Shown here piece after piece: positions 2,395 through 7,398 of a stretch of 33,589 bases of DNA (position 1 is its first letter; each line of letters opens with the position of its first letter). Where the stretch lies: NCBI GenBank assembly GCA_014610835.1, contig QQXM01000026.1:1-33589 (forward strand), read 5' to 3'. Below the pieces are notes generated by a model. It made no database searches and was not told the DNA's origin. It saw nothing but the letters and a program-made list of their open reading frames with translations. The stretch comes from Erysipelotrichaceae bacterium 7770_A6. GTDB lineage: Bacteria > Bacillota_I > Bacilli_A > Erysipelotrichales > Erysipelotrichaceae. The position numbers and the translations under genes were made by a program.

Positions 2395-2421
2395 AAACCG
2401 TATTTTAGATAGATACGGTTT
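2395..2421. terminator. Bidirectional terminator overlapping the rsfS stop
   Basis: Stem 2395-2403 with 2413-2421 (AAACCGTAT/ATACGGTTT). The rsfS stop codon (2405-2407) lies in the loop and its last codons form one arm. T-rich tails follow on both strands. Confidence 0.75.
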
Positions 2422-2761
2422 GTTTTGATTCATGTGATACTTGAGGAAGATCAGCCCAAAGACTTTCTAAACGATATGTCTGTCGTGCTTCTTCTGTAAA
2501 GATATGTACAACAACTTCATTACAGTCTAATAAGATCCATGTACTTTCTCTTTCCCCTTCTCTCATACGTGTTGTATATCCATGCTTCTCTGCTTCCTGC
2601 TCAACAAATTCCGCAAGTGAAGAAGCGTGTCTGACGTTTCTAGCTGTACATACAACAAAGTAGTCTGTAAATGGTGTTACGTTTCTCATATCAATAGAAA
2701 CGATATCTTCTGCCTGTTTTTCATCAAGCGTATTCACAATAATATCTAATAATTCAGACAT
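2405..2761 (-). CDS. rsfS: Ribosomal silencing factor RsfS (Iojap/YbeB family)
   Basis: Binds ribosomal protein L14 on the 50S subunit and blocks subunit joining when nutrients are short (family knowledge). The 118-residue sequence shows the family pattern throughout: DIVSIDMRNVTPFTDYFVVCTARNVRH, then a helical stretch, then GERESTWILLDCNEVVVHIF and YRLESLWADLP at the end. GGAGGG lies before the ATG. The start overlaps the end of the yqeK fusion gene by 8 nt, and it is the last gene of the six-gene parE-rsfS run. The position directly after yqeK is the standard Firmicute order. Confidence 0.96.
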   Translation of the reverse strand: MSELLDIIVNTLDEKQAEDIVSIDMRNVTPFTDYFVVCTARNVRHASSLAEFVEQEAEKHGYTTRMREGERESTWILLDCNEVVVHIFTEEARQTYRLESLWADLPQVSHESKQTVSI

Positions 2762-3560
2762 TTTTTCCCTCCGTTTTTAAAATATATGCTTTTGCTTTCT
2801 GAAGCACATAACGTGCTCCTTTCTGTAAGCTGATCCTGGATACTTCCCATTCTTTTGATGCATCATATCCTCGCAATGGCTCAATCTTATCTGCAATGTA
2901 TAAAATTGCATCATAATCACTTTTTCCATCTCCTAACGTATGATGCCAGATTGCATTCAGTGTTTGATGATCATGCAAACACAGATACTTCTGAATAAAG
3001 AATGGTGCTGTAAAACTATGCCATACTTTTGGATCATATTGCAAACCTTCAGGATAATAAATAGCTAATAGTTCTTTTCCTTTTTCATCATCCCATTTTT
3101 TTGTAATATCATGCAGTAATCCCATTCGATATGCACTCTCTGCATCTAAATGATGCATTTTCGCAAGCTGATATGCCGTTTTGGCAACTGAAACAGAATG
3201 TTCATACCGACGTGGTTTACAAAGTGCCTTTGCAATATTTTCATAGTAATATCCATTTTGATGAATCAAAGCTTTACTGCCGCGTGCACATAAATAGAAA
3301 CATCCATTTCTTGCCAGTTCTTCTTCATTTTTCAAAGAAACAGGAATTTCTTCACCACAGATATTACCAGTATACAAATGGATATGACGATATGGCCGAA
3401 TACATCTTTCAACAAGTTTGAGACGCTTTTGATATGGCAATACACCATTCCGGTCCACACGAATGAATACATCTTTTATACCATTCACTTTTCGATACTG
3501 AAGACAATATTCTAATTCCTTCTGTGTAATAGGATCAAACGTACAATGTAAGATTCTCAT
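2754..3560 (-). CDS. yqeK: YqeK-type HD hydrolase with a degenerate NadD-like N-terminus
   Basis: A 268-residue protein in two parts. Residues about 112-260 are an HD-domain phosphohydrolase of the YqeK family, which splits Ap4A symmetrically into two ADP: His121, His150-Asp151 (LLHD), His181, His206/207 and Asp224 (IADKIEP) are the expected metal ligands. Residues 1-110 begin RILHCTFDPITQKEL and continue PYQKRLKLVERCI, echoing NadD (GTFDPxHxGH and the following helix), but the nucleotide-binding HxGH is gone and the domain is about half the normal length. The gene occupies the site where nadD and yqeK normally sit side by side (yqeH-yhbY-nadD-yqeK-rsfS). ATGA overlaps join it to yhbY. The YqeK activity is likely; adenylyltransferase activity is not. 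Confidence 0.88.
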   Translation of the reverse strand: MRILHCTFDPITQKELEYCLQYRKVNGIKDVFIRVDRNGVLPYQKRLKLVERCIRPYRHIHLYTGNICGEEIPVSLKNEEELARNGCFYLCARGSKALIHQNGYYYENIAKALCKPRRYEHSVSVAKTAYQLAKMHHLDAESAYRMGLLHDITKKWDDEKGKELLAIYYPEGLQYDPKVWHSFTAPFFIQKYLCLHDHQTLNAIWHHTLGDGKSDYDAILYIADKIEPLRGYDASKEWEVSRISLQKGARYVLQKAKAYILKTEGKNV

Positions 3561-3844
3561 GGCAGTACAATCTTAGGATTTCTAGAAGGACGATACAGTA
3601 CAATCGTTCTTCCAATGATCTGCACAAGTTCACTGTCTGTTAATCTAGCAAGATCAAACGCTGTTTCTTCAATATCCACTGGACTGTTTTTTAGTACAGA
3701 GATCTTTACAAGCTCTCTTGCTTCGATGGCGTGGTCTACCTGTTCAATCAGGTTGTCACTCAATGCATCTTTTCCAATTTGAAAAATTGTCTTATCGCAT
3801 GATGCTAAACCACGTAAATATCTTTTCTGTTTTCCACTTAACAT
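3557..3844 (-). CDS. yhbY: CRM-domain RNA-binding protein YhbY
   Basis: A 95-residue single CRM-domain protein associated with 50S subunit precursors in other bacteria. It opens LSGKQKRYLRGLA, has the GxxG-type loop IGKDALSDN and continues ELVKISVLKN, all typical of YhbY. Its ATG directly follows the yqeH TAA, and its stop overlaps the next start by 4 nt. The context between a ribosome-assembly GTPase and a ribosome silencing factor fits a role in large- or small-subunit maturation. Confidence 0.95.
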   Translation of the reverse strand: MLSGKQKRYLRGLASCDKTIFQIGKDALSDNLIEQVDHAIEARELVKISVLKNSPVDIEETAFDLARLTDSELVQIIGRTIVLYRPSRNPKIVLP

Positions 3845-4894
3845 TTATAACATAGCCTTTCTAAACGTTACATTAACGTTTTCTGGAACATAGACTGTAA
3901 TTGTAGACATTTGACCATGTACACACGCCCATCCTAGTCCATCAATTACGATATCCATTTTATCCATTTCTTTACGAATCGTATACTTTTTAAATTGATT
4001 TGTCACAGGAACAGGTTGAAATAATGTTCCGTAATGCTTCTTCCATAATGCATCTGCACCAGATACTTTTCCTCTATGGATCTTCAAACTGTCACTCATA
4101 TAGAACACACAGGAAGCATGGTCACATTTCATTAGATCTAAACGAACAAGTCCACCAATCGCAAAAGACTGATCATAACGCAATTGGTATACCTGTGGTT
4201 TCAATGTTCTTGCGGGAAGGATTTCTTTTAATTCATCTTCTTTGACTTCCATCAAAATACTATGAGAAATTTCAATACCAGGTGTATCGACATAAGGTAC
4301 ACCATCAATCTCTAATTCATTAAAGTCTAATGTTGTACCAGGGTATCTAGACATTGTTAATGTATTTTCACCTAATAAATTATTTAACAATGTACTCTTG
4401 CCAGAGTTTGCTTTTCCCATGACAATGACTTCACGATTCTTACGATAGAGCTGTACTGCTTGTTTCACTTCTTCTACGCCCATTCTTTCAAGCTTGCTGG
4501 TTAAAATCAAAGACTTGATAGAAATACCATTTTCTTTCAATCTAGAAAATACAAATCGTGCAATTTTTTCTTCTGACAATGTATCTGGAAGAATATCACG
4601 CTTTGTACAAACCATAATAATATCTTTTCCAATCAGATGACGATTCAAACCGGGAATAATACCTGCTTCAAAATCAAACAAGTCAACGACCCAAAGAATC
4701 AAAGCATCACTCTGACTGATACGATCTATAACAACATCAGGATCAATTCCCTTTCGCATAGAGATCATTAAATCATCATAATGAATCAGTCGAAAGCATC
4801 TTTGACAATAATCACTGTTTTCTTTTGGTGTATATCCAGGAGCATTTGGATCTTTACTCTGCAGGATTGCACCACAACCTTTACATTTCTTCAT
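3845..4894 (-). CDS. yqeH: Ribosome biogenesis GTPase YqeH (circularly permuted)
   Basis: Required for 30S assembly in Bacillus. The 349-residue protein begins with a zinc finger (CKGCG ... YCQRCF). The GTPase motifs then appear in permuted order: G4 (TKRD) first, later G1 (GKANSGKS) and G3 (DTPG). The C-terminal part (about 205-349) matches the YqeH-specific region. A longer frame starts at a TTG at 4906, but GAGG is correctly spaced only for the ATG at 4894. That sequence also carries the parC stop (4903-4905), so yqeH follows parC closely in the same transcript. All G motifs are intact. Confidence 0.96.
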   Translation of the reverse strand: MKKCKGCGAILQSKDPNAPGYTPKENSDYCQRCFRLIHYDDLMISMRKGIDPDVVIDRISQSDALILWVVDLFDFEAGIIPGLNRHLIGKDIIMVCTKRDILPDTLSEEKIARFVFSRLKENGISIKSLILTSKLERMGVEEVKQAVQLYRKNREVIVMGKANSGKSTLLNNLLGENTLTMSRYPGTTLDFNELEIDGVPYVDTPGIEISHSILMEVKEDELKEILPARTLKPQVYQLRYDQSFAIGGLVRLDLMKCDHASCVFYMSDSLKIHRGKVSGADALWKKHYGTLFQPVPVTNQFKKYTIRKEMDKMDIVIDGLGWACVHGQMSTITVYVPENVNVTFRKAML

Positions 4895-4902
4895 ACATTT
4901 CC

Positions 4903-7398
4903 TCAAAATAACGTTATTTTTTCAATATCTTCATGTACTTCTTCATCTTCAGCATTTTCTGGAATATCAATAATACGACATTCTTCAATGTTCATTAACA
5001 TGCTCCATTCACTTTCCATTGTTACTGGAGAAGAGAAACCAGTTTCTCTTGTTTTAAATGGAACATCAGAAACATGGATTTCATGATTCTGGCTATCCAT
5101 AAATACAAGATTATCACCAGGCGTAACACCCTTGACATAACGCAGAATAGAAGGATTGCTCTTAAGCTTTTTACAGATCAGATTTCCCTTCATTGGACGG
5201 TTGCCTTCTACAACTTCTTCCATATGGACACGTTTGCATGCACCTGTAGAAGTGACATAAAGAAGTGCTGGTGTATCTGCATTGATTGCACATCCATAGG
5301 CAAGTGCATCATCTTTTGATGTATTCAATGCTTTTACACCCTTACTCTTAACACCTGTAGATGGAAGCTGATCCATAGCAAACTGATATGAATATCCTTC
5401 CTTAGATACAACAACAATCTTCTGATCATGATATGCAATAAATGCATTGAGCATTTCAGCATTCTTCGCAATATTCATCGCTGTCATAACCTTGGAATTA
5501 CGATCTACCTTCCATGCAGATACTGGTGTTTTCTTAATTTGACCATTACTAGATAATGTAACGATCCATGCATATGTATTAAAATCTTTGATCACAATTG
5601 CATTGATGATCTTATCATCCCCATCAATACGAATCACACTATTCAAGTGCACACCCATATCTTTCCATTTGGCTTCCTGGATCTGCCATACTGGAAGAGA
5701 AGCATAGTTTCCTTTCGATGTGAAAAGCAGCAATGTATCTAACGTATCACATTCCAATGTTCCAATCAGTACATCTCCATTCTTTAAACCTGTTGATGTA
5801 TCACTGCTTGCATTATAGGAACGTAAAGAAACACGTTTCACATAGCCATCTCTACTGCATGTAACCACAACTCTTTCACTTGTAACCATTGCAGCTTTAT
5901 CAATGACAATATCCTGTACTTCTTTTTCAATCTTTGTTCTACGAGCATCTCCATATTCATTTTTCACTGCACGTAATTCTTTAATAATAACAGATTTTAG
6001 AACATTCTCATTTTCAATGATTGCCTTTGTTTCTTCAATACGATTCACAAGCTCTGCAAATTCATTTCTTAAGATCTGAATATCCGTATTACTCAAACGA
6101 TACAGACGCATAGAAACAATTGCTTCTGCCTGTGGCTCATCAAAACCAAATTCATTCATCAGATTCTTTTTAGAATCCGCTTTATCTTTAGAAGCACGAA
6201 TGATACGAATGACTTCATCTAAAATAGAAACAGCTTTCATCAATCCCTCAATAATATGCGTTCTTTTTTCCATCTTATCAAGTTCGTAGCGACTTCTTTT
6301 CAAAACAACTTCTTTTCTGAATGCGATAAATGCATCCAGTAAGCCACATAAACCAACCTGTACCGGTCGTTTATCAATGATCGTTACATTGTTGTAGTTA
6401 TAGTAGATCTGAAGATCTGTATTCTTGTAGAAATAATTCAAGATCAGATTCGCATCTGCTTCTTTTTTTACATCTACAACGATTCTCATACCATTACGGT
6501 CTGATTCATCTCTTACATCCAAAACACCATCAATATCTTTGGATAAACGAATCTCATCCATTTTCTTGACAAGCTGTCCTTTAATCACTTCGTAAGGGAT
6601 TTCTGTAATAATGATCTGCTGGTTTGTACGTGTCTGTTCAATTTCACACTTCGCGCGCACAACAACTCTGCCTTTTCCTGTTTCAAAGGCATCATGAATT
6701 CCTTTTGCACCTTGTACAATACCACCAGTTGGAAAGTCAGGTCCAGGAATAATTTCCATCAAATCTTCTAAAGAACATTCTGGATTCTGAATACGATAAA
6801 TTGTCGCATCCACTGTTTCATTCATATTATGTGGAGGCATATTTGTAGCGTATCCTGCCGCAATTCCCGTTGCACCATTGACGAGCATGACTGGAAAAGG
6901 CACAGGCAATACTGTTGGTTCATTTTCCGTATCATCAAAGTTTGGTGCCATTTCTACGGTATCTTTATCAAGATCATCTTCCATGACTTCAGTCACTTTA
7001 GCAAGTCTTGCTTCAGTATAACGCATTGCAGCAGCTGGATCATCATCAATAGAACCGTTATTGCCATGCACATCAATCAAAGGTAATCTAACCTTCCAGT
7101 CTTGAGACATACGAATCAATGCATCATAGACAGAAATATCTCCATGTGGATGATAATTACCAATAACAAGACCAACCGTCTTTGCAGATTTACGATATGG
7201 ATGATCCCATGTATTTCCATCATGGTACATTGCATACAAGATTCTTCTCTGTACAGGTTTTAAACCATCTCTGGCATCTGGCAATGCACGTTCTTGAATA
7301 ATATACTTTGCATAGCGAGAAAAGCCATTTCCCATGATATCTTCAAGATGTTCCGGGATATACCGTGTTTTATCTTCAATTTGTTTTTTCTTTACCAC
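4903..7398 (-). CDS. parC: DNA topoisomerase IV subunit A (ParC)
   Basis: Breakage-reunion subunit of topoisomerase IV, which unlinks daughter chromosomes. The 831-residue protein has the catalytic Tyr127 in AAMRYTEARL. Features favouring ParC over GyrA are SQDWK after the quinolone region, HGNNGSID, and the lack of a GyrA box (QRRGGKG) in the C-terminal beta-propeller. The quinolone-determining segment reads HPHGD-Ile88-SVYD, where ParC normally has Ser (E. coli and S. aureus Ser80); the acidic position four residues on is Asp92. It starts at a GTG with GGAGGG upstream inside the end of parE, and its stop lies just before yqeH. It is encoded directly after parE. Confidence 0.95.
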   Translation of the reverse strand: MVKKKQIEDKTRYIPEHLEDIMGNGFSRYAKYIIQERALPDARDGLKPVQRRILYAMYHDGNTWDHPYRKSAKTVGLVIGNYHPHGDISVYDALIRMSQDWKVRLPLIDVHGNNGSIDDDPAAAMRYTEARLAKVTEVMEDDLDKDTVEMAPNFDDTENEPTVLPVPFPVMLVNGATGIAAGYATNMPPHNMNETVDATIYRIQNPECSLEDLMEIIPGPDFPTGGIVQGAKGIHDAFETGKGRVVVRAKCEIEQTRTNQQIIITEIPYEVIKGQLVKKMDEIRLSKDIDGVLDVRDESDRNGMRIVVDVKKEADANLILNYFYKNTDLQIYYNYNNVTIIDKRPVQVGLCGLLDAFIAFRKEVVLKRSRYELDKMEKRTHIIEGLMKAVSILDEVIRIIRASKDKADSKKNLMNEFGFDEPQAEAIVSMRLYRLSNTDIQILRNEFAELVNRIEETKAIIENENVLKSVIIKELRAVKNEYGDARRTKIEKEVQDIVIDKAAMVTSERVVVTCSRDGYVKRVSLRSYNASSDTSTGLKNGDVLIGTLECDTLDTLLLFTSKGNYASLPVWQIQEAKWKDMGVHLNSVIRIDGDDKIINAIVIKDFNTYAWIVTLSSNGQIKKTPVSAWKVDRNSKVMTAMNIAKNAEMLNAFIAYHDQKIVVVSKEGYSYQFAMDQLPSTGVKSKGVKALNTSKDDALAYGCAINADTPALLYVTSTGACKRVHMEEVVEGNRPMKGNLICKKLKSNPSILRYVKGVTPGDNLVFMDSQNHEIHVSDVPFKTRETGFSSPVTMESEWSMLMNIEECRIIDIPENAEDEEVHEDIEKITLF

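Follow-up and report, generated by a model that had tools for sequence, protein, structure and literature searches.

In the classical form of the cluster the gene order is yqeH-yhbY-nadD-yqeK-rsfS, and Bacillus has two genes where Erysipelotrichaceae bacterium 7770_A6 has one. A full NadD-YqeK fusion is known in mycoplasmas, where the YqeK part cleaves mis-made NaAD analogues as well as 8-oxo-GTP, and proofreading has been offered as the explanation for the tie between YqeK and NadD (PMC9426524). Hydrolysis of Ap4A to two ADP is known for relatives (PMC11857287; Minazzato 2020 as cited in PMC9426524), and the metal ligands of Streptococcus pyogenes YqeK are His29, His58, Asp59, His91, His117 and Asp135 (PMC11857287). 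Our literature search, which was thin on subscription papers, returned no published description of a shrunken NadD-YqeK, and we regard the protein analyzed here (P0001) as a variant of the known fusion, the shrunken variant being new.

Gene order and the YqeK half

We analyzed a window of 33,589 nucleotides (the whole stretch of DNA under study) from the gut bacterium 7770_A6, in which the order at the locus is yqeH-yhbY-X-rsfS, with X a shrunken nadD-yqeK. That X is one gene, as the original prediction held, is borne out by a single intact frame at 2754-3560(-) with a 268-aa product. Assembly error or frameshift as the origin of P0001 was ruled out, as many independent genomes share the architecture. 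Rfam returned zero matches within the window, whose relevant features are as follows:

3845..4906, (-) strand: yqeH GTPase, upstream of yhbY
3557..3844, (-) strand: yhbY, upstream of the shrunken nadD-yqeK and sharing a 4-nt overlap (ATGA) with its start
2754..3560, (-) strand: shrunken nadD-yqeK gene (P0001), 268 aa, a ~110-residue NadD remnant followed by an intact YqeK HD hydrolase
3225..3560, (-) strand: NadD remnant, residues 1-112, predicted as beta1-FDP-helix A-beta2-helix B-beta3, a short strand and the NadD C-terminal helices (hhalign, AF2, VIA-align)
3531..3539, (-) strand: FDP, residues 8-10, sole remainder of GGxFDPxHxGH, invariant in 49 shrunken homologues
3243..3341, (-) strand: residues 74-106, corresponding to SSTxIRxG plus the final NadD helices, with SS lost and R-x-G and Tyr105 kept
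2757..3224, (-) strand: YqeK HD hydrolase domain, residues 113-268, intact (TIGR00488 above cut-off; Z 22 to YqeK structures)
3108..3113, (-) strand: HD motif His150-Asp151, which with His121, His181, His207 and Asp224 makes up six metal ligands
2405..2761, (-) strand: rsfS, downstream, with an 8-nt overlap with the end of the shrunken nadD-yqeK

The YqeK half is intact, as had been proposed from the sequence: TIGR00488 scores 91.7 bits on residues 112-262 (cut-off 70.15), solved YqeK structures are the closest matches of this part by both sequence and structure, and residues 97-268 of the AlphaFold model match those structures with a Z of 22 over 170 residues. The S. pyogenes ligands correspond, in order, to His121, His150, Asp151, His181, His207 and Asp224 of P0001, and all six are invariant in 49/49 shrunken homologues. 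P0001 shares these six ligands and an ADP-binding Lys with the symmetrical Ap4A hydrolases of the YqeK type (TIGR00488; PDB 8wmy, 8jja, 2ogi, 2o08), but bears a folded NadD remnant where nothing but a short N-terminal helix is present in the solved YqeKs, and its C-terminus lies, by residue offset, at about the position of the ADP-contacting Phe180/Thr183 of those structures. The alignment with ordinary YqeK structures begins only at residue ~97, and they do not share the N-terminus of P0001.

What remains of NadD

Scanned by itself against Pfam and NCBIfam, P0001 gave no NadD signal in the remnant (TIGR00482 did not detect it), and family HMM scans returned weak CTP_transf_like or NadD matches in a few of the 49 shrunken homologues. 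When a profile of these 49 was aligned by hhalign with a profile of 22 full fusions, residues 1-112 matched at 99.6% (E 3.7e-24), with residues 1-70 falling on NadD strands 1-3 and helices A and B, residues 80-112 falling on the SSTxIRxG segment and the C-terminal helices, and one internal deletion between the two segments accounting for ~70 of ~180 NadD residues. The AlphaFold (AF2) model of P0001, obtained with an alignment, has a pLDDT of 96.5 and a pTM of 0.92, and VIA-align matches its residues 1-106 to solved NadDs with Z 10.3-11.8 and an rmsd of 2.2-2.5 Å over ~105 residues spread across the whole NadD chain. As a yardstick, the full fusion of Holdemania massiliensis reaches Z 20-26 over ~178 residues; the ~105 residues of P0001 do not amount to a complete ~180-residue Rossmann-like domain.

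On the strength of the profile-profile alignment, the AlphaFold model and the structure matches, we read the remnant as a pared-down NadD fold and not an unrelated domain; since the same segment is conserved in relatives and the predicted structure matches NadD, chance resemblance is excluded. The stretches xTFDPI and PYQKRLKLVERCI, first recognized as the start of a NadD, fall on the FDP turn after strand 1 and on helix B, respectively, and the loss of HxGH and about half of the domain was also correctly called, while the structure comparison proposed as a check gave residues 1-106 a predicted fold like that of a nucleotidyltransferase. Compared with NadD (TIGR00482), the remnant has strands 1-3, helices A and B and the C-terminal helices, but lacks catalytic and substrate motifs, and its central sheet is halved. 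P0001 likewise resembles the NadD-YqeK fusion (PRK07152; JCVISYN3A_0380 of the minimal mycoplasma) in domain order, in homology over both parts and in its intact HD half, but its NadD half is without the active site and ~70 residues. PRK07152 matches P0001 over residues 95-262 only, with 121 bits against a cut-off of 315, a value that the full Holdemania fusion itself just misses at 312.6.

We next compared individual residues. Across 87 full fusions, conservation reaches 90% or more at 29 positions of the NadD half, and 95-100% in the HxGH motif. Shrunken proteins from the genus of 7770_A6 and its neighbours keep F8, D9, P10, R46, G86 and Y105, where Arg46, Gly86 and Tyr105 are Arg54, Gly159 and Tyr178 in full-fusion numbering; Arg46, in helix B, is conserved in 96% of shrunken homologues, and Arg84 (full-fusion Arg157) is retained in 71% of the shrunken proteins of the genus and neighbours. 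Lost are G7, G8, H14, H17, P42, K44, T86, G104, D106, W114, R131, S152 and S153 (90-100% in the 87 full fusions), and with them the GG, HxGH, PLK loop, SYT and GxDQ motifs, Trp114, Arg131 and the SST serines. Where (H/T)xGH should follow GGxFDP, P0001 reads FDPITQKE, and no (H/T)xGH occurs in the shrunken homologues of its genus; at the phosphate-binding SSTxIR motif, SS is replaced and only R-x-G kept. To judge from the sequences, the kept residues look like structural ones and the lost ones like the catalytic and ligand-binding set, roles that we take from what is known of NadD.

This pattern bears on the suggestion, also made in the original prediction, that the domain has been reused to bind nucleotides. 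As a ligand-sensing or substrate-capturing module, it would bind a nucleotide or dinucleotide and control or feed the YqeK site: half of a nucleotide-binding fold persists under purifying selection, including the FDP turn and, where SSTxIRxG once stood, an R-x-G, and its predicted rigid packing would permit coupling. Against this, the remnant has lost the residues by which NadD holds ATP or NaMN (HxGH, GG, PLK, SST, GxD, Trp), it is less conserved than the HD domain (mean top-residue frequency 0.43 vs. 0.56), and we found no surface motif common to all shrunken groups. With core-like residues kept and catalytic or ligand-binding ones lost, reuse for nucleotide binding gains no positive support, and we consider a sensing module unlikely, although weak or novel ligand binding may occur.

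Shrinkage across the family

Among 139 family genomes with a match, 90 encode the full fusion, 36 the shrunken form and 13 a YqeK nearly without a NadD part. Full fusions, found for instance in Holdemania, Faecalicoccus and Longicatena, are typically 336-350 aa long. Shrunken proteins measure 254-287 aa (one has 309), with a NadD part of 93-117 aa (one has 142), and occur in all sampled members of the genus of 7770_A6, bar one cut-off match, as well as in Bulleidia extructa and Lactimicrobium massiliense; the 13 YqeK-only forms have ~22-28 residues before YqeK (one has 58). All sister-family members listed have frames of 352-414 aa, which is full-fusion size (judged by length), so the full fusion is likely the ancestral state in the order, with only the shrinkage derived. 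The original view of a nadD shrunken and fused to yqeK hence stands as regards the shrinkage; the fusion is no new event, being the norm in the order.

To follow the shrinkage, we used a tree of YqeH, YhbY, the YqeK domain and RsfS that excludes the NadD half and represents a single locus without an outgroup root. On this four-gene tree, full and reduced forms interchange at least 8 times, or 10 times if reduction is irreversible. A single origin of shrinkage was rejected, as a tree constrained to unite all reduced forms is worse by 300 log-likelihood units (AU p 5e-110). Genus g24 has full, intermediate and shrunken forms side by side, the intermediate (G138) having a 142-residue domain with NEGH in place of HxGH, and separate shrunken lineages arrive at 93-117 residues. 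Most other shrunken groups align to NadD by hhalign at 97-99.6%; in g5, g19, g33 and g56 the N-terminal part is not significantly aligned to NadD by profiles, so that we infer its NadD descent in these four from position, length and a residual F-x-P.

Selection on the remnant was estimated by pairwise Nei-Gojobori comparison. Among shrunken proteins, median dN/dS came to 0.24 (remnant) and 0.11 (HD domain), compared with 0.15 (NadD half) and 0.16 (HD domain) among full fusions. The pairs are not independent, and with dS often near saturation these values are rough. The ratio of dN between the N-terminal part and the HD domain is 2.0 for shrunken proteins, as against 1.0 for full ones. Together with the dN/dS of ~0.24, this indicates that constraint on the remnant is relaxed but far from absent, and the remnant, despite evolving at twice the HD-domain rate, is not a pseudo-domain. 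The earlier idea of a decaying pseudo-domain found no support, the domain being present in all genus members examined (one match cut short), with that dN/dS and a confident predicted fold.

A milder version, in which a functionless remnant undergoes slow decay, restrained solely because misfolding beside YqeK is costly, and with ~25-residue forms as its end point, would account for the series of lengths at one locus (180, 142, ~105 and ~25 residues), for the doubled dN and for the loss of recognizable NadD signal in four groups. It sits poorly with a dN/dS of ~0.24, an FDP invariant in 49 proteins, a length steady across the genus and a pLDDT above 95, and we think it quite improbable.

NAD synthesis and the proposed role of the mini-domain

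The cell had been expected to obtain NAD through another NadD or by salvage, and a search of the 7770_A6 genome found a complete separate NadD of 210 aa at C143, between the NAPRT (pncB) and NadE genes in the order pncB-nadD-nadE. It scores 109.6 bits with TIGR00482, just below the cut-off of 112.45, carries ISSSIVR and a TIAH variant of (H/T)xGH, and is most likely the enzyme through which NAD is made in 7770_A6. This protein (L001:1474-2106) has TIAH where most separate NadDs have HxGH, and close genus relatives have TKAH or TRAH.

Across the family, a separate NadD was found in 0/90 full-fusion genomes vs. 41/49 reduced genomes (Fisher p 1.5e-27, ignoring kinship); in a kinship-aware comparison, 5.3 of 6 supported independent pairs agree and 0 oppose (median p 0.06). 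Most separate NadDs adjoin pncB and/or nadE; the neighbourhood comes in three or more gene orders, which suggests that they were acquired several times. At L182 (G053), an 859-aa ORF beside pncB has NadD and NadE matches in one frame, an apparent NadD-NadE fusion.

Eight of the 49 reduced genomes have no detected NadD; nadE exceeds its cut-off in 0/8, and a pncB match is absent from 7/8. A wider PF01467 scan of NadD-less reduced genomes returned only matches with the size and score of CoaD, TagD, RibF or TmcAL, leaving out G016 and G055, which returned no candidates at all, not even CoaD. Absence of NadD from the eight is provisional, as several of their assemblies are fragmented. G096, with nadE above cut-off, is not one of them. 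In G056, G089, G047, G073, G100, G019 and G131, no NadD, NAPRT or NadE above cut-off was found; such bacteria may import a late NAD precursor, or their assemblies may lack the genes.

These genomes also bear on two further readings. The shrunken domain might still be an adenylyltransferase, with changed specificity, as its whole-fold likeness to both NadD and PPAT would allow; with a (H/T)xGH-type motif and SST absent, half of the sheet lost, and eight reduced genomes lacking a detected NadD, none with nadE above cut-off and seven without pncB, we give this almost no credence. Alternatively, it might dock the separate NadD so that YqeK could go on proofreading NadD products, in keeping with the hydrolysis of mis-made NaAD analogues by the mycoplasma-fusion YqeK (PMC9426524); the mini-domain is kept, however, where no NadD was found, in g56 (98 and 93% completeness) and G019 (98%), and such docking is very unlikely.

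The explanation we favour, and think probable though by no means certain, is that a non-catalytic mini-domain derived from the full fusion was kept as a scaffold for YqeK after another nadD took over. The order of events that we infer would start from a bifunctional full fusion of NadD and YqeK; nicotinate-mononucleotide adenylylation would then have passed to a separate nadD, in most cases a neighbour of pncB and/or nadE (in a few lineages, the pathway would have been lost instead), whereupon selection on the fused NadD half would have relaxed, and one internal deletion together with point changes would have removed the NadD active site. What remains would be a ~105-residue half-Rossmann mini-domain without catalytic residues, presumably devoid of any NadD activity, retained as rigid packing on YqeK in the orientation predicted by AF2 and possibly serving folding, stability, assembly or substrate access. 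YqeK itself would stay a metal-dependent nucleotide diphosphatase acting on Ap4A and, by analogy with relatives, on aberrant dinucleotides and oxidized nucleotides. More tentatively, and with rather low confidence, we consider that the route from enzyme to scaffold is recurrent and predictable, having been taken at least 8-10 separate times within this family, each time towards a similar non-catalytic mini-domain of ~100 residues, with the mini-domain gaining a YqeK role of its own in allosteric sensing or substrate delivery.

Two observations weigh against a scaffold. The 13 family genomes without the mini-domain have only a ~25-residue N-terminal stretch before YqeK, so that its help is not essential for YqeK in general, and an N-terminal part unrecognizable as NadD in g5, g19, g33 and g56 also fits slow decay. 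Scaffold or not, the locus offers a natural experiment with at least 8 repeats, in which a fused half whose job another copy takes over loses its active site and keeps its fold core. Because YqeK keeps a full active site while some genomes apparently lack any NadD, its main work must be wider than NadD proofreading. Annotation by homology could label the shrunken proteins as NAD-synthesis enzymes, very likely wrongly.

Among YqeK-only forms, the ~25-residue N-terminus (DNFHLLSSKQRRFILNNDEVLIDLV; g3, e.g., L154) resembles by eye the final part of the g56 shrunken domain (L136), a likeness between sequences that suggests a further trimming step. At L166 (G047), where rsfS was not found adjoining the YqeK locus, a YqeK without a NadD part appears by eye to carry a C-terminal fusion to a SAM-methyltransferase-like domain, which may be YqeM.
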